Assembly (NCBI GenBank): GCA_024742405.1
Contig: JANSYP010000001.1
Coordinates: 248,001-312,000, forward strand
DNA length: 64,000 nucleotides
Reading direction: 5' to 3'
Origin: Paracoccaceae bacterium
GTDB lineage: Bacteria; Pseudomonadota; Alphaproteobacteria; Rhodobacterales; Rhodobacteraceae
Part shown: one piece after another, positions 2,983-64,000 of the stretch
How the letters are laid out: every line of letters starts with the position of its first letter
Position numbering within the stretch: position 1 is the first letter of the stretch
The notes under the pieces: generated by a model
What the model saw: the letters and a program-made list of their open reading frames with translations, nothing else
What the model was told of the DNA's origin: nothing
Databases searched by the model: none
Program-made: the position numbers and the translations under genes

Positions 2983-4821
2983 TCAGTCGCCGAGCGCGAT
3001 GCCTTCGCGGCGCGGGTCGGCGCCGCCGCGCAGCCCGTCCGGCCCGATCGAGATCGCCTGAAGGCCCGAGGTCAGGTCCCGGATTTCGGTCTCGTAGCCC
3101 AGTTTCGCAAGCGGGCCCTGGAGCGCTTCGGCGTCGGTCCCGGCCTCCAGATCATAGGTGCCGAAGCGGTTGACCAGGTGGGGCATGTCGATGGCGGCCT
3201 GCACATCCATCCCCCAGTCGAGATGGGCGATGATGGTCTTGGCGACATAGCCGATGATCCGGGAGCCGCCCGGCGAGCCCACGACCAGCACCGGTGCGCC
3301 GTCGCGCAAAACGATGGTCGGCGCCATGGAGGAGCGCGGCCGCTTGCCCGGTGCGATGGCATTGGCGATGGGCCGGCCGTCGACATGGGTGCGGAAGGAG
3401 AAATCCGTCAGCTCGTTGTTCAGCAGGAACCCGCCCGGCGCCATCAGCCGCGAGCCGAAGCTGTTCTCGATGGTCGTGGTCATCGACAGCGCGTTGCCGT
3501 CGGCATCGACGATGGAGATGTGCGAGGTCGAGGGCAGCTCCAGGCTCTCATCGGGTGCCCAGAGGCTTGCGTGATCGAAGCCGGGGTTGCCGGGGGCGAC
3601 CTCCGGCAGGGCGTCGTCACCGCCCAGAAGCTCCGCCCGTTCGCCCAGATAGGTGGGGTCGACCAACCCGGTGACGGGGACGGCGAGGAAATCGCTGTCG
3701 GCCATGTAGAGACCGCGGTCGGCGAAGGCGAGGCGCGAGGCGTCGCCGATCAGGCGCCAGGTCTCTGGATCGTCGGGAGCGCGGCTGTGGATGTCGTAGC
3801 CCTCGAGCAAGCCGAGGATCTGGCCCACGGTGAGCGCGCCGGAGGAGGGCGGGCCCATGCCGCAGACATCATGGCCGTGATAGGCCACGCACACCGGCGG
3901 GCGCTCCTTCACGCGGTAGGCGGCCAGGTCGCCGAGCACCATCACGCCGGGGTTGTCGGTGAAGCCATGTACCGTTTCGACGATTCCCTCGGCGATGGGG
4001 CCGGTATAGAAGGCGGCCGCGCCGCCGGCTGCGAGGGTTTTCAGGGTTTCGGCATAGGCCGGGTTGGTCAGCGTGGTGCCTGCGGCGATGGGCGTGCCGC
4101 CGGGCAGGAAGTAATCGGCGGTGGGGCCGTGGCGCGCGAGCCGGTCGGCATCTCCGGCAATCAGCGCGGCCTTTCGGGGCGAGACGGCAAAGCCGCCCTC
4201 GGCCAGCGCAATGGCGGTGTCGAAAAGCCCGGCCCAGTCGCTCTGCCCCCAGCGGTCATGGGCCGCCTGCAGCAGCGCCGGGGTGCCGGGAACGCCCACC
4301 GAGCGTCCGCCGACGACGGCGTCGAAGAACTGCATCGGCTCGCCATCCCCGGTCTGAAAGAGCGTGGGTGTGGCGGCGGCGGGGGCGGTTTCGCGCCCGT
4401 CCAGCGTCGTGACCTCGCCGCTCTCCGCATCGTACCAGACGAGAAACGCCCCGCCGCCGAGACCGGAGGATTGCGGCTCCACCAGCCCCAGCACCGTCTG
4501 GACGGCGACCATGGCATCGGCCGCGCTGCCGCCGTCTGCCAGAACCGCGGCGCCGGCCTCGACCGCGAGCGGGTTGGCGGCCGCGACCATCCAGGTGGCG
4601 GCTTCTATCGGCGTTCCGGCGGTTTTTTTGGCGAAGGACGCGGCGGCGGCCTCGCTCAGAGCGGCGGCGCCGCCGGAGAACGCGGCCTCGGGGGCGACGG
4701 CGTCCGCGGCCTCCTGTGCCGGGGCGGCCGTGGCCAGCAGCAGGGCGAGACCCGAGACGAGGCCTGCGGCGAGGAACATCGAATGAAGCGACGGGCGGAT
4801 CGGGGTTGCGATCGGGGGCAT
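2983..4821 (-). CDS. ggt: Gamma-glutamyltransferase (GGT), periplasmic
   Basis: 612 aa, the usual size for a GGT proenzyme. A signal peptide (residues about 13-36, hydrophobic, ending APAQEA) directs it to the periplasm. Visible family marks are DGRETAP (Arg143, binds the gamma-glutamyl carboxylate), the autocleavage site STSHISIVD with nucleophile Thr432, and downstream [10 protein letters not shown]. The enzyme hydrolyses or transfers the gamma-glutamyl group of glutathione. The start at 4821 has GGAG upstream and begins the signal peptide; a longer open frame to 4956 would add an unrelated tail. Monocistronic, convergent with the Crp/Fnr gene. A second GGT begins at 63469. Confidence 0.92.
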
Positions 4822-4982
4822 GGCGGTCTCCAGCGGTTGCGGGCGGTCCATTGGCACACGCACAGGATGACGTACCTCGCGCGCCGGTCCAACCCCTTGA
4901 TGCGGCGCGCGGTCATCGGTTTGCATCCCGGCGGCGCTGCGCGCTATGCGGGGCAAGGCAGCGGCGGAAAGGGAGCCGGGGT

Positions 4983-9596: not shown

Positions 9597-10016
9597 ATGC
9601 GTAGAACGTTTTTGACCGCGGTTCTTGCGGGTTCGGCGACATTTTGTGCGGTGATCTCGGAGGCCGAAGAGGCTGACGCCACCGCTATCGCCCGGGTGAT
9701 CGGCGATCAGATCGCCGCCTTCCAGTCCGATGATTTCGCCGCCGCGTTCGACTATGCGTCGCCAGGCATCCGCGGGATCTTCGGCACGCCCGAGCGCTTT
9801 GGCCAGATGGTGCGTGACGGTTATCCGATGGTCTGGCGGCCCTCGGATGTGCAGTTCCTGGACCTGCGCCAGGATGGCGGTTCGGTCACTCAGCAGGTTC
9901 TGGTGCGCGATGCGAAGGGTGTGCCCTGGCTGCTCGACTATCAGATGGTGCGCGGCGGTTCCGGCTGGCAGATCAACGGGGTCCAGATCCGTGTCGCGCC
10001 GGCCGTCGGCGCGTGA
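9597..10016 (+). CDS. Exported DUF4864-type protein
   Basis: 139 aa. A signal peptide (MRRTFLTAVLAGSATFCAVI) is followed by a small alpha+beta domain. The stretch IARVIGDQIAAFQSDDFAAAFDYASPGIRGIFGTPERFGQMV is typical of the DUF4864 family, an NTF2-like fold of unknown role. No catalytic residues can be assigned. AGGGAT lies about nine bases before the ATG. It is downstream of lysK and may be cotranscribed with it. Function unknown. Confidence 0.75.
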   Translation: MRRTFLTAVLAGSATFCAVISEAEEADATAIARVIGDQIAAFQSDDFAAAFDYASPGIRGIFGTPERFGQMVRDGYPMVWRPSDVQFLDLRQDGGSVTQQVLVRDAKGVPWLLDYQMVRGGSGWQINGVQIRVAPAVGA

Positions 10017-13362: not shown

Positions 13363-14082
13363 ATGGAAAATGCAGCCTACGCCACTCTGACGCGCCAGTC
13401 CGGTCTCAAGGCCGAACTACAGACGCTTGCCAACAACATCGCCAACGCATCTACCGTCGGGTTCCAGCGCGAGGGCGTCCTGTTCGCCGAGTATGTCACC
13501 GCGCTGGAGGATCCCAACACGTCGCTCTCCATGGCGCGGGCCGAAGGCCGTTTCACCGACACCTCCTTTGGCGGTCACCGCAATACCGGCGGACGGTTCG
13601 ACTTTGCCATCTCCGGCGAGGGCTACTTCCAGATCCAGGCCGAAGACGGCCCCCGCCTGACACGGGCGGGCGCGTTTGCGCCGGACGCCAACGGAGATCT
13701 TGCGACGCCGGTCGGACATTTGCTGCTCGACGCCGGGGGAACGCCCGTTCCGATCCCGCCGGGCGCGGAGAGCGTGACTTTGTCCGGCGACGGAACGCTC
13801 AGCATCGACGGCTTTCCGGTGACGCAGCTGGGCCTGTTCCTGCCGACGGACCCCAATAGCCTGCAACGCGCCGGAGATACGAGCTTCCGGACCGAGGGTG
13901 GTATCGAAGCCATTGAAAACGGACAAATCCTGCAAGGGTTTCTGGAGGATTCCAACGTCGACCCGATCTCCGAAATCACCCGGCTGATTGAAGTGCAGCG
14001 CGCCTATGAGAAGGGCGGTAATTTCCTCGGAAAAGAGGATGAGCGCATCCGCTCGGTGATCCGAACTCTTGGCAGCGCCTAA
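13363..14082 (+). CDS. flgF: Flagellar basal-body rod protein FlgF
   Basis: 239 aa. The N-terminal axial motif is TLANNIANASTVGFQREGVLF, a central flagellar hook/basal-body domain includes FDFAISGEGYFQI, and the C-terminal motif is NVDPISEITRLIEVQRAYEKG. The shorter length than FlgG and position before it support FlgF, a proximal rod protein. The start codon lies one base after the fliQ stop, implying translational coupling. Confidence 0.92.
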   Translation: MENAAYATLTRQSGLKAELQTLANNIANASTVGFQREGVLFAEYVTALEDPNTSLSMARAEGRFTDTSFGGHRNTGGRFDFAISGEGYFQIQAEDGPRLTRAGAFAPDANGDLATPVGHLLLDAGGTPVPIPPGAESVTLSGDGTLSIDGFPVTQLGLFLPTDPNSLQRAGDTSFRTEGGIEAIENGQILQGFLEDSNVDPISEITRLIEVQRAYEKGGNFLGKEDERIRSVIRTLGSA

Positions 14083-58526: not shown

Positions 58527-59516
58527 ATGATCAAGAAACTCGAAGTGACGGCCATCGCTGTCGCCATCGCACTGCTTGGGCAGACCGCCTTTGCCGAGAC
58601 ATGGCGCATGGCCACCAAGATGCCCGTCGACAGCCCTGAAGGAAAAGTCTTTCAGGCCATCGCCGACAAGACCGCCGAGTATTCCGGCGGCACGCTCGAA
58701 ATCCAGGTGTTCCCCAACGAACAGCTCGGCAAGGAAGACGCCGTTCTGGAACAGCTGCAGAGCAACGTCGTGCAGATCTATGCCGAAGGCTTTGGATTCC
58801 TGAAGAAATGGGTGCCCGAAACGACCTGGTTCAGCGCGGCCTTCATGTTCGACGATCGCGACCACTGGGCGCGTTTCGTCAATGGCGATCTGGGCCAGGA
58901 GTGGTTCCAGAGGGTCGAGGACGAAGCCGGCGTGACAGTGCTGGGCGATCCGACCAAGATCCTGCGCGGCCCCTATCGCGTCATGGTTTCCGGGCCGAAA
59001 GTGAGCGGTCTGGACGATATCTCGGGGCTCAAGCTGCGGATGCATCCCAACCAGCTGGCCATCGCCACATGGTCCCATCTCGGGGCCGAAGTGATCACGC
59101 TGCCCTGGACGGACGTCTATCAAAGCATCGACAAGGGCCTGATCAGCGCGGTGAACAGCCCGGTGGCGCTCGTGGAATCCATGCGCTTCAACGAGGTGGC
59201 CGAAAACATCGCCCGCACCGACGAGTACCATCAATCCATCGGGCTGATGGTCAATGCCGGGGCGCTCGCCGCGCTGGACGACCAGCAGCGCGACGCCCTG
59301 ATGCGCGCCTATGACGAGGCGGCGGAGCTGAGCGTTCAACTCATGAACCAGGCGACCGAGGACAGCATGGCGCGGATGACCGCGGCCGGCATCGAGTATG
59401 TCGAGCTCGACACAGCGCCTTTCGTCGCGCGCATGGGCGAGTTCTACGACGATCTCGACGCCAAGGGCGAACTGCCCGAGGGCTTCCGCGCCGCGGTCGA
59501 GGCTGCGCGCCAATGA
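58527..59516 (+). CDS. TRAP transporter substrate-binding protein (DctP family)
   Basis: 329 aa. A signal peptide (VTAIAVAIALLGQTAFA) is followed by the DctP fold: YSGGTLEIQVFPNEQLGKEDAVLEQLQ, GLDDISGLKLRMHPNQLAIATW (with the Arg that binds substrate carboxylates) and DVYQSIDKGLISAVNSPVALVES. It captures an organic acid in the periplasm. GGGAG precedes the ATG. The stop overlaps the small permease start (ATGA). Confidence 0.92.
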   Translation: MIKKLEVTAIAVAIALLGQTAFAETWRMATKMPVDSPEGKVFQAIADKTAEYSGGTLEIQVFPNEQLGKEDAVLEQLQSNVVQIYAEGFGFLKKWVPETTWFSAAFMFDDRDHWARFVNGDLGQEWFQRVEDEAGVTVLGDPTKILRGPYRVMVSGPKVSGLDDISGLKLRMHPNQLAIATWSHLGAEVITLPWTDVYQSIDKGLISAVNSPVALVESMRFNEVAENIARTDEYHQSIGLMVNAGALAALDDQQRDALMRAYDEAAELSVQLMNQATEDSMARMTAAGIEYVELDTAPFVARMGEFYDDLDAKGELPEGFRAAVEAARQ

Positions 59517-60076
59517 GCCAAAGCTCCCGCCCTGTCCCCAAGGCCATCGCGATTGCCGATGCCACCCTGCTGGGGATCGGGCGGGGGTTTTCGTGGATGT
59601 GTTCCTTCTGCCTGCTCGCGATGCTGGCGCTGACCGCCGCGACCATCCTGCTGCGCCCCCTGGGCGTCAGCTTCTACTGGATTTTTCCGTGGGTCATGGT
59701 GCTGTTTGTCTGGCTCAGCTTTTTCGGGTTTTTCCCGGCGATGATCTTTGGCCGCGACATCCGCATCGATTTCGTCGCGCGGCTGTTCGGAGACACCGGC
59801 ATGCTGGTAACGCGCATCGTCGGACAGGTCGTCGTGCTGTTCGTGCTCTACTGGCTGCTGCTGGAATTGCCGGCCATCGTGGCGCGGCAATCGGGCAGCG
59901 TCGACGGCGCGCTCCTGCCTTGGGGCGGGGAGGTCAAACGGCGCATGCTGTCGCTGCCGCTGCTGTTGTCGTGCCTGTGCATCACGGCCGCCCTGCTGTT
60001 GGACATCGCGAAGATGCTGCTCGGCCTGCCTGAGCGCGGGTCCGATCGGCTCCCCGGCGAAGTCGGAGACGCGTAG
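59513..60076 (+). CDS. TRAP transporter small permease (DctQ family)
   Basis: 187 aa with four membrane helices (for example FCLLAMLALTAATILLRPLGVSFYWIFPWVMVLFVWLSFFGF and VVVLFVLYWLLLELP). The FPWVMVLFVWLSFFG stretch is the DctQ signature. It forms the membrane complex with the large subunit. It overlaps dctP and lies three bases before the dctM start. The basic N-terminus (SRPVPKAIAIAD) is longer than usual. Confidence 0.9.
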   Translation: MSQSSRPVPKAIAIADATLLGIGRGFSWMCSFCLLAMLALTAATILLRPLGVSFYWIFPWVMVLFVWLSFFGFFPAMIFGRDIRIDFVARLFGDTGMLVTRIVGQVVVLFVLYWLLLELPAIVARQSGSVDGALLPWGGEVKRRMLSLPLLLSCLCITAALLLDIAKMLLGLPERGSDRLPGEVGDA

Positions 60077-60079
60077 TCC

Positions 60080-61378
60080 TTGGCCATCCTGCTCTTCACC
60101 GTCTTCATCGCGCTGATCCTGCTGCGCGTTCCGGTCAGCTTTGCCATCGGCGCGGCCGTGGTCGCGGCCTTTCTGACCTCGGATTTCTCGAACGCGATGC
60201 AGGTCATCCCGCAGCAGATCCTCGAAGGCGTCAACAAGGCGTCGCTGACGGCCGTGCCCTTCTTCATCATGGCGGGAAACCTGATGAACGCGGCGGGCGT
60301 CACCGACCGTATCTTCAATTTTGCCAATGCGCTGGTGGGCCATTTCAAAGCCGGTCTGGCGCAGGTCAATGTCCTGTCGTCGATGATCTTTGCAGGCATC
60401 TCCGGCGCTGCCGTCGCCGATTGCGCGGGCCTCGGCGCGATCGAGATCAAGGCGATGCGCGAACGCGGCTACAAACCCGAGTTCGCCGCCGCCATCACCG
60501 TCGCGTCGGCCGTGATCGGCCCGTTGATCCCGCCCTCCATCGGCCTGGTGATCTATGCCTTTCTGGCCCAGCAAAGCATTGACCGGATGTTCCTGGCCGG
60601 CGTCGTGCCCGGTGTGCTCGTCGGGCTGTCTCTGATGCTCTGGGTGCGCGGGATCGCCAGCTTCAAGAGCTTCCCGACCCAGCCGCGCGCGCCCGTCCGC
60701 GAGGTCGCGCGCACCGGGGTCGACGGGTTTCTCGCGCTCATGGCCCCGGCGATCATCCTGGGCTGTATCCTGACGGGCTTCGTCACCGCGACGGAGGCCG
60801 GCGTGCTGGCCTGCATCTACTGCATCGGGCTGGGTCTGTGGTACCGGGAGCTGACCTGGAAATCCTTCTGGGGGGCGTTGAACGAGACCGCCATGATGAC
60901 CTCGGTCATCATGATCATCATCGGCTTTTCCATCGCGATGGGCTGGCTTCTCGCCATCGAGCAGGTGCCCCAGGGCGTCGCCGAGTGGGTCTTCAGCCTG
61001 ACCGAGAGCAGGGCGGTGTTCCTCGCACTGATGATGGTTTTCGTGCTGCTGATCGGTTGCGTCGTCGAAGGTGTGCCGGCCAAACTGATCCTGGTGCCGA
61101 CGCTCTTGCCGCTGGTCGATCTCTACGGCATCGACCGCGTGCATTTCGGCATCGTTCTGCAACTGGCGCTCCTGATCGGCATTGCCACGCCGCCCATGGG
61201 CATCGGGCTCTACATCGTGTCCGAAGTGGGGCGCGTGGCGTTCGACAAGGTCGCGCTGGCCACGTTGCCGCTGCTGATCCCGCTGATCGTCGTGCTGATC
61301 ATGCTGGCCTATATTCCGGCGCTTTCGACCTTCCTGCCCAACCTGATCCTCGGGCCCGACACCACCATTCTCCCCTGA
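60080..61378 (+). CDS. TRAP transporter large permease (DctM family)
   Basis: 432 aa with about twelve helices. Signatures: VPFFIMAGNLMNAAGVTDRI near residue 65, IFAGISGAAVADCAGLGAIEIKAM near 112 and ASAVIGPLIPPSIGLVIYA near 145. It moves the substrate into the cytoplasm with a sodium gradient. The start is TTG 60080. It lies 15 bases before the RraA-fold gene. Confidence 0.93.
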   Translation: MAILLFTVFIALILLRVPVSFAIGAAVVAAFLTSDFSNAMQVIPQQILEGVNKASLTAVPFFIMAGNLMNAAGVTDRIFNFANALVGHFKAGLAQVNVLSSMIFAGISGAAVADCAGLGAIEIKAMRERGYKPEFAAAITVASAVIGPLIPPSIGLVIYAFLAQQSIDRMFLAGVVPGVLVGLSLMLWVRGIASFKSFPTQPRAPVREVARTGVDGFLALMAPAIILGCILTGFVTATEAGVLACIYCIGLGLWYRELTWKSFWGALNETAMMTSVIMIIIGFSIAMGWLLAIEQVPQGVAEWVFSLTESRAVFLALMMVFVLLIGCVVEGVPAKLILVPTLLPLVDLYGIDRVHFGIVLQLALLIGIATPPMGIGLYIVSEVGRVAFDKVALATLPLLIPLIVVLIMLAYIPALSTFLPNLILGPDTTILP

Positions 61379-61393
61379 CCGGAAAGGTACCGA

Positions 61394-62068
61394 ATGTATA
61401 AGATGCGTCCTCTGCCCACTGCCGTGGATCAGAGCTATTTGGACCGCCTCGCCCGTCTGGAGACCGCCACGATCGGCCATACCCATCAGTTCGGATTTGC
61501 CGACCCGTCGCTGCAGTCGGTGATCCCCGGCACGACTGCCGTCGGCACAGCGGTGACGCTGGCCCTGCCCGGACAGGATTCCACCCTGTTGCACCACGTG
61601 ATCGCCCAGCTTCGCCCCGGCGACTTTCTGGTCATCGACCGGCTCGGCGACATGCGCCATGCCTGTTTCGGCGGCGGTGTGGCGCTGGCCAGCAAACAGC
61701 AGGGGTTCGCGGGCGCGGCGGTCGACGGTGTGCATACCGACACGTCCGAGATCGCAGAGCACGGTTTCGCGCTCTGGTCGCGCGGGGCGTCCCCGATCAC
61801 GACGCGGCTCTATGACATCGGTGGCGGTTTCAACATCCCCGTGTGCTGCGCCGGGGCCGCGGTCCTGCCCGGCTATGCGGTGCTGGCCGATGAAAGCGGT
61901 GTGCTCTTCATCGCCCCGGACGATCTGGAGGAGGTGATCTCCACCGCGGAGGTCAAGACCGAGCGCGGCCTCGCCACGATCCAGCGTCAGAAGTCCGGCG
62001 AAAAGCTCGGCGTGATCAGCGGCGCGACGGAAAAGGTCGAGACGCGACTGGCCGCAGCCGGGGGCTGA
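61394..62068 (+). CDS. RraA-fold protein (HMG-aldolase-like)
   Basis: 224 aa. The RraA/4-hydroxy-4-methyl-2-oxoglutarate aldolase fold is clear: LRPGDFLVIDRLGDMRHACFGGGVALASKQQGFAGAAVDG. In the active site, family members read DGxxRD; here it is DGVHTD, with Thr115 replacing the substrate Arg while Asp116 (metal) is kept. So aldolase chemistry on a carboxylate substrate is doubtful. It is cotranscribed with the TRAP genes and an FAD dehydrogenase. Confidence 0.8.
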   Translation: MYKMRPLPTAVDQSYLDRLARLETATIGHTHQFGFADPSLQSVIPGTTAVGTAVTLALPGQDSTLLHHVIAQLRPGDFLVIDRLGDMRHACFGGGVALASKQQGFAGAAVDGVHTDTSEIAEHGFALWSRGASPITTRLYDIGGGFNIPVCCAGAAVLPGYAVLADESGVLFIAPDDLEEVISTAEVKTERGLATIQRQKSGEKLGVISGATEKVETRLAAAGG

Positions 62069-62071
62069 TCC

Positions 62072-63472
62072 ATGCCGGATCTGGTCTCATCGCTCGCGTC
62101 CGTTCTGGGCGACGCGGGTCTGATCACCGACCCGGCCGAGATGGCCCCCTACCTCACCGACTGGCGCGGCGAATGGCGCGGGCGCGCCCGGGCCATTGCG
62201 CGGCCCGCGACGGCGCAGGAGGCGGCCGGGGTCATCAGACTTTGTCGCGGCGCGCGTGTGCCGCTGTCGGTGCAGGGGGGGAACACGGGCCTGGTCGGCG
62301 GCTCGGTTCCCGGTGCGGACGCGGCGGGAGTGCTGCTGCAAACCGGTCGCCTGCTGGCGCCGCAAACCCTCGACCCGGAAGAGGCGACGCTGACCGTGGG
62401 CGCCGGCACGCCGCTGGCTGCCGCCGAAGCCCTCGCCGGCACCGCGGATCTGCGCATCGGCCTGCGCCTCGGGTCCGAAGGCACCGCACAGATCGGCGGG
62501 CTGATCGCGACGAATGCCGGCGGCAGCCACGCGATGCGCTTTGGCATGATGCGCGCACAGGTGCGCGGGATCGAGGCCGTCCTGCCCGATGGTACGATCC
62601 TTGCCAGCGCCGGCGGGTTGCCGAAGAACAATTTCGGCCCCGACATGGCGCAGCTCTTCATCGGCTCCGAAGGCGCGTTCGGCCTGATCACGGCGGCGAC
62701 GCTTGCGCTGCATCCCCGGCCTGCGGCCACCGCGACGGCGCTGTGCGCCCTCTCCGGTCTGGCCGCGCTCCCGAAGCTCGTGCGCCGCGCCAAAGCCCTG
62801 GGACCCGCGGTGGAACGCATCGAGTTCATGTCGCGCGCGGGCATCGTGCTGGCGCAGGCGCATATCCCCGAGACGCACGTGCCGTTCGGGGCCCCGCCGG
62901 AATGGTGTGTCCTGATCGAGCTGACGGGATCCGATGCCGAAACCACCGAAGGCCAGCTTCTTGCCCTGTTCGAGGACGCGCTGGAGGCCGGCTGGGTCAC
63001 CGACGGTCACCTTGCCGCCAGCCTCGCCCAGGCCGAGGCGTTCTGGCATTTGCGCGAAGCGGTGGTCGAAGGACAGCGGCGCCATGGTCCCCAGATCAAG
63101 CATGATGTCGCCGTGCCGGTCGCGCGGATCCCCGCCTTTATCGACGAGACGACCGTCGCGCTCGCGGCCGCACAGCCCGGCCTGCTCGTCAATCCGTTCG
63201 GCCATGCCGGCGACGGGAACGTGCATTTCAATGTCTCGCCCGGTGCGCATCACGACCCTGCGCGGATCACCGCGATCGTCCACGAACATGTGCGCCGCTA
63301 CAGCGGCTCGCTGGCCGCAGAACACGGGATCGGCAGGCTGAAAGGCGCGCTCTTTCGCGATAGTCTGAGCCAGGCCGCGGAAACGCTGATCTACGGGCTG
63401 CGCCGGCATCTCGACCCTCAGGGGCTCTTCAACCCGCATATCCTTCCGCTTCCGCCACAGGAGGTTTCATGA
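62072..63472 (+). CDS. FAD-linked D-2-hydroxyacid dehydrogenase
   Basis: 466 aa. The PCMH-type FAD domain (VPLSVQGGNTGLVGGSVPG, LRLGSEGTAQIGGLIATNAGGSHAMRFGMM) and FAD-oxidase C domain (NPFGHAGDGNVHFNVSP, AEHGIGRLKGALF) match the D-2-hydroxyglutarate/D-lactate/glycolate dehydrogenase family. The His in HAGDGNVHFN bind the metal. It oxidises a 2-hydroxyacid to a 2-oxoacid; which one is unknown. ATG 62072, three bases after the RraA-fold gene; its stop overlaps the GGT start. Confidence 0.88.
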   Translation: MPDLVSSLASVLGDAGLITDPAEMAPYLTDWRGEWRGRARAIARPATAQEAAGVIRLCRGARVPLSVQGGNTGLVGGSVPGADAAGVLLQTGRLLAPQTLDPEEATLTVGAGTPLAAAEALAGTADLRIGLRLGSEGTAQIGGLIATNAGGSHAMRFGMMRAQVRGIEAVLPDGTILASAGGLPKNNFGPDMAQLFIGSEGAFGLITAATLALHPRPAATATALCALSGLAALPKLVRRAKALGPAVERIEFMSRAGIVLAQAHIPETHVPFGAPPEWCVLIELTGSDAETTEGQLLALFEDALEAGWVTDGHLAASLAQAEAFWHLREAVVEGQRRHGPQIKHDVAVPVARIPAFIDETTVALAAAQPGLLVNPFGHAGDGNVHFNVSPGAHHDPARITAIVHEHVRRYSGSLAAEHGIGRLKGALFRDSLSQAAETLIYGLRRHLDPQGLFNPHILPLPPQEVS

Positions 63473-64000
63473 ACCACGACACCGAACAGTGGACAGTCTC
63501 CAAATCCGCCACCAGGCACGCGGACGGTATGGTCAGTGCGCAGCATATCCTTGCCGCGCGGGCAGGGGCCGCGATGCTGGAGCAGGGCGGCAACGCGGTG
63601 GATGCCGCCGTTGCGGCCGGTCTCGCGCTCGGGGCTGTCGAGCCGTGGATGTGCGGTCTGGGCGGCAGCGGTCTCATGGTGATCTGGCTCGCGGCCGAAA
63701 AGCGCGCGGTGACGCTCGACTTTCAGGGCGTTCTTGCCGAGGCGACGAGCTTTGCCGACTACCCCGTCGATCCCGATTTGCCGCAGACGCTGATGGGCTT
63801 TCCGACGGTCAGGGACAATGCCAATGTCGAAGGCTATCGCGCGATCACGGTCCCGGGGGCGGCGGCCGGGTTCGACCATGCCTTGTACAAATGGGGGAGC
63901 CTGCCGCGCGCCACGGTCGCGGAACCCGCGATCGCGCTGGCGCGGAACGGGGTCGAGGCGACCTGGTTCACCACCCTGCAGATCGCGCTGGCCAGCCCGG
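63469..64000 (+). CDS. Gamma-glutamyltransferase family protein, partial (runs off window)
   Basis: 177 codons present before the window edge. MVSAQHILAARAGAAMLEQGGNAVDAAVAAGLALGAVEPWMCGLGGSGLMVIW is the GGT N-terminal pattern (xxGxGxxGGGxxMV-like). The usual DxRExAP Arg region reads LDFQGVLAEATSF, so the Arg of glutathione-type GGTs is absent and a different substrate is likely. No signal peptide is seen. CAGGAGG precedes the ATG, which overlaps the dehydrogenase stop. The catalytic Thr is beyond the window. Confidence 0.8.
   Translation, partial: MNHDTEQWTVSKSATRHADGMVSAQHILAARAGAAMLEQGGNAVDAAVAAGLALGAVEPWMCGLGGSGLMVIWLAAEKRAVTLDFQGVLAEATSFADYPVDPDLPQTLMGFPTVRDNANVEGYRAITVPGAAAGFDHALYKWGSLPRATVAEPAIALARNGVEATWFTTLQIALASP

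Follow-up and report, generated by a model that had tools for sequence, protein, structure and literature searches.

What is taken up and degraded by a run of closely packed genes whose products form a transporter and an unusual set of enzymes? The question is raised by the end of the window analysed here, a 64,000-nucleotide stretch from a Paracoccaceae bacterium (bases 248001–312000 of a 1.94 Mb contig; genome 5.02 Mb), whose nearest named relatives, among them Roseobacter sp. H9 and Kandeliimicrobium roseum, belong to the Rhodobacteraceae. Six plus-strand genes at 58527–64000 encode all three components (DctP, DctQ and DctM) of a tripartite ATP-independent periplasmic (TRAP) transporter, an RraA-fold protein, a flavin adenine dinucleotide (FAD)-linked D-2-hydroxyacid dehydrogenase and a hydrolase of the gamma-glutamyltransferase (GGT) family; neighbouring genes overlap or sit 3–15 nt apart. 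We think it rather likely that they belong to an uptake-and-catabolism module for an imported carboxylate bearing an amide (or cyclic amide) bond, with an exchangeable hydrolase feeding a 2-hydroxy or 2-oxo acid to a dehydrogenase and an aldolase. The original prediction had listed the same six genes, all of which were found at its coordinates and strand with domains confirmed by Pfam, and had proposed extension past 64000, where the operon does go on with a GhrA-like dehydrogenase, a LysR gene, an HpcH/HpaI aldolase and a second TRAP system (Table 1).

The TRAP transporter and the RraA-like protein form a tight unit. We searched 295 genomes of the family with DctP alone, and 11 matched at E ≤ 1e-70. 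DctP is at least 55% identical in eight genomes (G000, G183, G067, G088, G014, G002, G162 and G136), and in 8/8 of this clade the RraA-like gene adjoins the TRAP genes, with a LysR gene between them in G002. Three genomes at 40–45% DctP identity (G149, G260 and G211) have no clear RraA-like partner: the RraA match of G260 scores just 46 bits and lies ~5 kb off, and in G211 a member of the subfamily lies ~40 kb off on the same contig. In G183 the genes stand at both ends of one contig; these ends are identical over 1120/1120 bases, and the contig is therefore a circular replicon. This contig (C5; loci L125 and L201), ~92 kb in size and probably a catabolic plasmid, carries the TRAP–RraA–GhrA cluster, creatininase, hydantoinase/oxoprolinase and several DAO-type FAD oxidoreductases.

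Three DctP residues, R171, W194 and S211, are invariant in 19/19 sequences, whichever hydrolase is present. Their counterparts in the alignment with a SiaP-like protein are R147, F170 and N187, which we take to contact the ligand. E87, which adjoins the position of SiaP E67, likewise does not vary in 19/19; within the clade it is constant, as are Y85 and K94, and the three outside DctPs differ at all three positions. Because the DctP residues stay constant across hydrolase types, they suggest one ligand class served by different amide-cutting enzymes. By profile, DctP best matches 4p1e and SiaP-type proteins. Structure models made from three near-identical sequences each were too poor for a fold search (predicted local distance difference test scores of 36.9 for DctP and 30.5 for the RraA-like protein).

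The hydrolase varies. A C–N hydrolase lies within 10 kb in all eight DctP-clade genomes, and its fold differs among them: GGT in the window's own genome and G136, creatininase plus a second type of GGT in G067 and G183, creatininase in G088, and nitrilase in G014, G002 and G162. We examined 25 RraA loci of the family, namely L040, L041 and the 23 best of the 37 matches obtained in 394 genomes. At 23 of the 25, a C–N hydrolase (GGT, nitrilase, creatininase or N-formylglutamate amidohydrolase type) lies no more than 10 kb away, a count that is descriptive, as the hydrolase seeds were drawn from these same loci. At both exceptions, L125 and L136, the contig is cut; the far end of the G183 contig (L201) supplies creatininase, second-type GGT and hydantoinase/oxoprolinase A and B for L125, making it the 24th locus. 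Pfam assigned 10 of 144 RraA neighbours to GGT, 10 to 2-hydroxyacid dehydrogenases, 4 to nitrilases and 4 to creatininases, while for 147 control genes none of those four families is among the best 25 of 162 (down to 2 members). Left out were the neighbour L126:5860–7533 (for its size), two proteins >700 aa and three control genes of L097 (147 of 150 used); loci below 57% G+C, and L130, were gene-called by longest open reading frame.

A held-out set of 20 loci was taken from other families of the class, where the RraA profile matched 19/385 genomes, the window's own included; one of the 27 profile matches is the window's own and four were left uncovered (two on G565:C46, two on G641:C30). With the seeds fixed, a hydrolase was found in 9/20 RraA loci versus 3/34 control loci (Fisher one-sided p = 0.003, a value that overstates independence because the held-out loci include near relatives, the controls moreover being neighbourhoods of distant GGT homologues, from which the GGT gene was taken out, and not random loci). 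Among the controls, L050 carries a weak RraA match of its own (38.6 bits). The 141 held-out neighbours include, by Pfam, nitrilase (8), DctM (8) and TauD-type dioxygenases (6).

The makeup of that test weighs against the exchangeable-hydrolase module, and so do several counts. The fixed seeds gave none of the hydrolases in 11/20 held-out loci; in four of these (L182, L187, L188 and L189) Pfam identifies N-acyl hydrolases or peptidases of other kinds, among them aspartoacylase/succinylglutamate-desuccinylase-type genes in L187, L188 and L189 and also an M20 hydrolase in L188, and in the remaining seven no such hydrolase was seen among the part of the genes that annotation covers. Orthologues of the window's GGT-family gene stand without RraA in 4/10 loci (L042, L044, L046 and L047, the last only 8.5 kb long). 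The cluster is rare, with GGT at ≥50% identity in 6/295 family genomes, and the sole other genome of the genus gave no match at E ≤ 1e-60. Simple replacement of one hydrolase by another also fits poorly with G162, which holds nitrilase, RraA and TRAP genes together (L132) and GGT with GhrA elsewhere (L047).

The RraA-like protein belongs to the Pfam family of 4-hydroxy-4-methyl-2-oxoglutarate/4-carboxy-4-hydroxy-2-oxoadipate (HMG/CHA) aldolase, an RraA-fold enzyme (3NOJ) that is also its best PDB match, but it has Thr115-Asp116 where that aldolase has Arg-123-Asp-124, and it scores below all the NCBIfam cut-offs listed. According to PMC5065237, Arg-123 is essential and stands beside the metal-binding Asp-124; its change to Ala makes activity undetectable and its change to Lys lowers kcat 181-fold. 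The Arg is absent in 47/47 RraA-like sequences, with Thr in 46 and Ala in 1 (Thr in 25/25 of the family set; Thr in 21 and Ala in 1 of the 22 held-out copies). The adjacent Asp is kept in the window protein and is Gly in 4/22 held-out copies, namely the tandem copies of L187 and L189. The proteins have conserved motifs of their own (VDR..D, GG, T136 and N147). For an HMG/CHA aldolase or oxaloacetate decarboxylase the domain is thus present and the essential Arg missing, and we rejected both assignments. Since the Arg is absent throughout, the protein is not an ordinary aldolase, and by its sequence it is a distinct subfamily that does not use the known aldolase mechanism; the option of an ordinary splitting enzyme, raised in the original prediction, is not supported.

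The GGT-family protein was compared in the same way with E. coli GGT. It belongs to the same sequence family and retains the nucleophile T330 (T391 in E. coli), the second Thr, T348, and the tandem Gly of the oxyanion hole, G413-G414, the second of which is Ala in orthologues L047 and L048. Unlike E. coli GGT, it has lost the residues that bind the gamma-glutamyl group, whose roles are given in PMC8062742: R114, N411, Q430 and D433 are replaced by Q86, L350, A369 and Y372, and of S462/S463 the first is kept (S392) and the second is N393. Q86, L350, Y372, S392 and N393 are unchanged in 10/10 orthologues. The score against the TIGR00066 equivalog is 258.3 bits, below the cut-off of 357.85, and inspection by eye shows no recognisable signal peptide at its start, as had been predicted. 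The protein is probably an Ntn (N-terminal nucleophile) hydrolase of different specificity. We considered oxamate amidohydrolase HpxW, which we take 5hft to be; HpxW is a GGT-family amidase with no gamma-glutamyl role. The match to it is much weaker than that to true GGTs (47.7 versus 170 bits).

The ten GGT orthologue loci are the window's own, L040, L041, L123, L042 and L044–L048, the relatives being 50–84% identical to the window protein. In the alignment of GGT homologues, 18/43 candidate loci were skipped (stops or short), and 8 of 43 aligned rows were unused because of the wrong strand (L021, L038, L067, L068, L075, L076 and L077) or the wrong gene (L134_ggt2). GhrA lies within 10 kb in 9/10 orthologue loci, the exception being L044; among 35 loci whose GGT homologues are no more than ~47% identical (L049–L063 and L083–L102), one has a weak GhrA match, of 80 bits.

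The gene order itself is conserved in some relatives. L123 (G744) keeps it in full, DctP-DctQ-DctM-RraA-FAD-GGT-GhrA, LysR and HpcH-DctQ-DctM-DctP, at 73% identity for the FAD gene and 80–95% for the remaining genes, and L041 (an uncultured Rhodobacteraceae) has the same order minus the FAD gene at 79–96%. Because it recurs in these two other genomes, the order is more than chance, and the claim of a single catabolic unit with conserved linkage stands; lack of linkage in relatives, named in the original prediction as its refutation, was looked for and not seen, though the complete set is rare. GhrA, GGT, RraA and TRAP genes are also retained together in G136, a family member with a 2.4 Mb genome, and this survival may point to a substrate that is common in the environment. 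The FAD gene of L040 (Roseobacter sp. H9) has shrunk to a C-terminal fragment within a 320-base gap (9680–10001), and a DctP piece after LysR (13528–13965) is all that was matched of the second TRAP system; both remnants are signs of loss.

The FAD step is optional, since its gene is absent in L041 and only a fragment in L040; the FAD dehydrogenase was accordingly rejected as a core enzyme, and its predicted part as the key oxidation step finds no support, though L123 keeps the gene. Its best PDB matches are 3pm9 and 6lpn (D-2-hydroxyglutarate dehydrogenase). It carries FAD-binding and FAD-oxidase_C domains and HxGDGNxH and EHGIG, which are motifs of GlcD and the FAD D-2-hydroxyacid dehydrogenases; its score against the GlcD equivalog TIGR00387 is 174.5 bits (cut-off 567.9). 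The GhrA-like enzyme, of the nicotinamide adenine dinucleotide (NAD) type, is better conserved, with >300 bits in 11/25 RraA loci. Like the FAD enzyme and the aldolase, it holds the usual catalytic motifs of its kind, so all three are probably active.

In the mechanism that we propose, the TRAP transporter would import a carboxylate carrying an amide (or cyclic amide) bond, and a C–N hydrolase would open this bond in the cytoplasm. Here that enzyme would be the GGT-fold Ntn hydrolase, with autocleavage expected before Thr330; in relatives a creatininase- or nitrilase-type enzyme would take its place, presumably acting on the same bond. The freed 2-hydroxy or 2-oxo acid would then be oxidised or reduced by the GhrA-like NAD enzyme, helped here by the optional FAD D-2-hydroxyacid dehydrogenase, and the HpcH/HpaI aldolase would probably split the resulting 2-oxo acid. 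The RraA-like protein, as the constant partner of the transporter, may act on the imported compound or on a product, by a chemistry other than that of the known pyruvate aldolases. Together, the transporter and the RraA-like protein would set the substrate of the module. The order of the steps is likewise part of the proposal, as is the direction of the dehydrogenases.

Three narrower forms of this mechanism name a substrate. If it were a cyclic amide (lactam, hydantoin or imide), creatininase- and hydantoinase/oxoprolinase-type enzymes would open the ring and a GGT- or nitrilase-type enzyme would cut the open-chain amide. Creatininase occurs in 8/25 family RraA loci, plus G183 through its other contig end, and the G183 cluster also has hydantoinase/oxoprolinase A and B and the second GGT type; but no creatininase match was found in the window cluster, L040, L041, L123, L045, L048 or the nitrilase-linked family loci except L140, and hydantoinase/oxoprolinase is in 1/26 family stretches and 0/20 held-out loci. 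We hold this form to be unlikely. An amide of a D-2-hydroxyacid, such as pantothenate, seems improbable. Its hydrolysis would yield D-pantoate and beta-alanine; pantoate would be oxidised to ketopantoate, which the aldolase would cleave to 2-oxoisovalerate and formaldehyde. HpcH/HpaI aldolases take 4-hydroxy-2-oxo acids, and ketopantoate is one; there is also a pantothenate-cleaving enzyme for which no gene is known. In L178, which has TRAP genes nearby, a gene of the PanE family overlaps that for the RraA-like protein, and a class-III aminotransferase adjoins RraA in L180 and is near it in L182. PanE-family members, however, also reduce other 2-oxo acids, and PanE was matched in 1/46 stretches and the aminotransferase in 2/46, neither in the window cluster. 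We give equally little credence to an amide of ethanolamine or another N-alkyl amine, similar to the plant signal N-(2-hydroxyethyl)-2-(2-hydroxyethylamino) acetamide (HEHEAA), with a C2 acid (glyoxylate/glycolate) interconverted by GhrA and the GlcD-like enzyme. These two families do act on glyoxylate and glycolate, RraA is joined to a LuxR-type regulator and pip-like hydrolase in L137 and L138 as in PipR loci, L183 has genes for the ethanolamine ammonia-lyase large subunit (EutB), a pip-like hydrolase and a nitrilase in the neighbourhood of RraA, and DAO-type FAD oxidases are near RraA in L124, L125 and L126. HEHEAA, on the other side, lacks the carboxylate that TRAP binding proteins usually require, and EutB is in 1/46 stretches, none within the family. 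Cyclic amides, pantothenate-like hydroxyacid amides and ethanolamine or alkylamine amides, each seen in one to a few of the 46 stretches, are leads only.

Two accounts depart further from the amide module. In a gamma-glutamyl/hydroxyglutarate pathway, a true GGT would cleave a gamma-glutamyl amide and the FAD enzyme would oxidise 2-hydroxyglutarate. A GGT-family gene does adjoin one for a D-2-hydroxyglutarate-dehydrogenase-like enzyme, but with the binding residues replaced, the score under the equivalog cut-off and the FAD gene unconserved, this pathway is highly improbable; we dropped the gamma-glutamyl route for the lost binding residues, and with it the gamma-glutamyl substrate that had been suggested. 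It is also quite unlikely that the locus is a generic scavenging island, in which transport and enzyme genes are gathered with no pathway in common. The transporter-rich surroundings (second TRAP, TctA/TctC) and the mosaic neighbourhoods in relatives fit such an island, whereas the DctP–RraA pairing (8/8), the GGT–GhrA pairing (9/10), the overlapping reading frames and the retention of the cluster in a 2.4 Mb genome speak against it.

Among open-access papers we found none joining GGT, TRAP and RraA, RraA and TRAP (with or without the dehydrogenase), or creatininase, GGT and 2-hydroxyacid dehydrogenase, and none of those on RraA family proteins deals with such an operon, as judged from titles and the opening of the abstracts; the absence of a described pathway with this gene set, as first predicted, is borne out to that extent. 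A catabolic gene cluster is of a known kind; the constant transporter–RraA core with differing C–N hydrolases and the Arg-less RraA subfamily appear to be undescribed in this literature. More tentatively, we suggest that the Thr-for-Arg RraA-like proteins may be a new, non-aldolase type of enzyme and, with one importer clade, the fixed core of an amide-catabolism module found across Alphaproteobacteria, whose amide-cutting enzyme comes from at least four unrelated families. The locus places together three poorly understood groups: GGT-family enzymes other than true GGTs, RraA-fold proteins that cannot be ordinary aldolases, and a TRAP clade with no known ligand. As the hydrolases differ but the binding protein is kept, a single DctP ligand would narrow the pathway for all variants.

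Table 1. Genes of the operon and its surroundings. Positions past 64000 are window-equivalent and come from L009, an extended stretch of the same genome (L009 position = window position − 56999).
Feature	Position	Strand	Remarks
TRAP solute-binding protein DctP	58527–59516	+	Pfam DctP, 172 bits; clade that occurs with RraA-like gene
TRAP small permease DctQ	59513–60076	+	Pfam DctQ, 33.2 bits; 4 nt overlap with DctP
TRAP large permease DctM	60080–61378	+	TIGR00786, 393.6 bits, above cut-off; also Pfam DctM
RraA-fold protein, subfamily with Thr-Asp replacing aldolase Arg-Asp	61394–62068	+	PF03737 (RraA-like), 92.6 bits, cut-off 24.5
FAD-linked D-2-hydroxyacid dehydrogenase (GlcD/D2HGDH-like), optional part	62072–63472	+	Pfam FAD_binding_4 and FAD-oxidase_C
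GGT-family Ntn hydrolase, 5′ part in window	63469–64000	+	Pfam G_glu_transpept; whole gene to window-equivalent 65061, 530 aa
GhrA-like NAD-type D-2-hydroxyacid dehydrogenase	65058–65987	+	Overlaps GGT-family gene by 4 nt
LysR gene	65990–66913	−	L009, past window
HpcH/HpaI aldolase gene	67019–67783	+	L009, past window; divergent from LysR gene
Second TRAP system, DctQ-DctM-DctP	67780–70560	+	L009, past window
Two MmgE/PrpD-family genes with TctA- and TctC-like genes	L009 13587–19589 (window-equivalent 70586–76588)	−	TctA and TctC named by reading

The two MmgE/PrpD-family genes with TctA and TctC form a further organic-acid cluster adjoining the operon. Several neighbourhoods of the RraA-like gene elsewhere were also noted. 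In L137 (10586–13907) and L138 (5968–9261) the gene occurs with a LuxR-type regulator, which has an autoinducer-binding domain, and with a pip-like alpha/beta hydrolase; both loci further contain a nitrilase and an HpcH aldolase, together with an ATP-binding cassette (ABC) importer. The combination of regulator and pip-like hydrolase resembles the LuxR-solo/pip loci (PipR, with the ethanolamine-derived amide HEHEAA), in contrast to the window cluster, where neither a LuxR nor a pip-like gene was matched; two papers on such loci make no mention of RraA. In L183 (5854–12386), the only one of the 46 stretches with an EutB match, the gene is near those for the ethanolamine ammonia-lyase large subunit, a pip-like hydrolase and a nitrilase. 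The PanE-family ketopantoate-reductase-type gene of L178, with its TRAP genes near, overlaps the RraA-like gene at 3344–4947. A tandem RraA-like pair with Thr-Gly for Thr-Asp stands beside an aspartoacylase/succinylglutamate-desuccinylase-type gene and ABC importer genes in L187 (8733–11125) and L189 (8227–10627). In L182 (7704–13024), perhaps a locus for the use of acetylated polyamines, the neighbours of the RraA-like gene are one gene of the histone-deacetylase type and others for an alpha/beta hydrolase, a class-III aminotransferase and the M17 aminopeptidase. A TauD/TfdA-type dioxygenase gene directly adjoins the RraA-like gene in L184 (1689–3243) and L186 (9587–11127).

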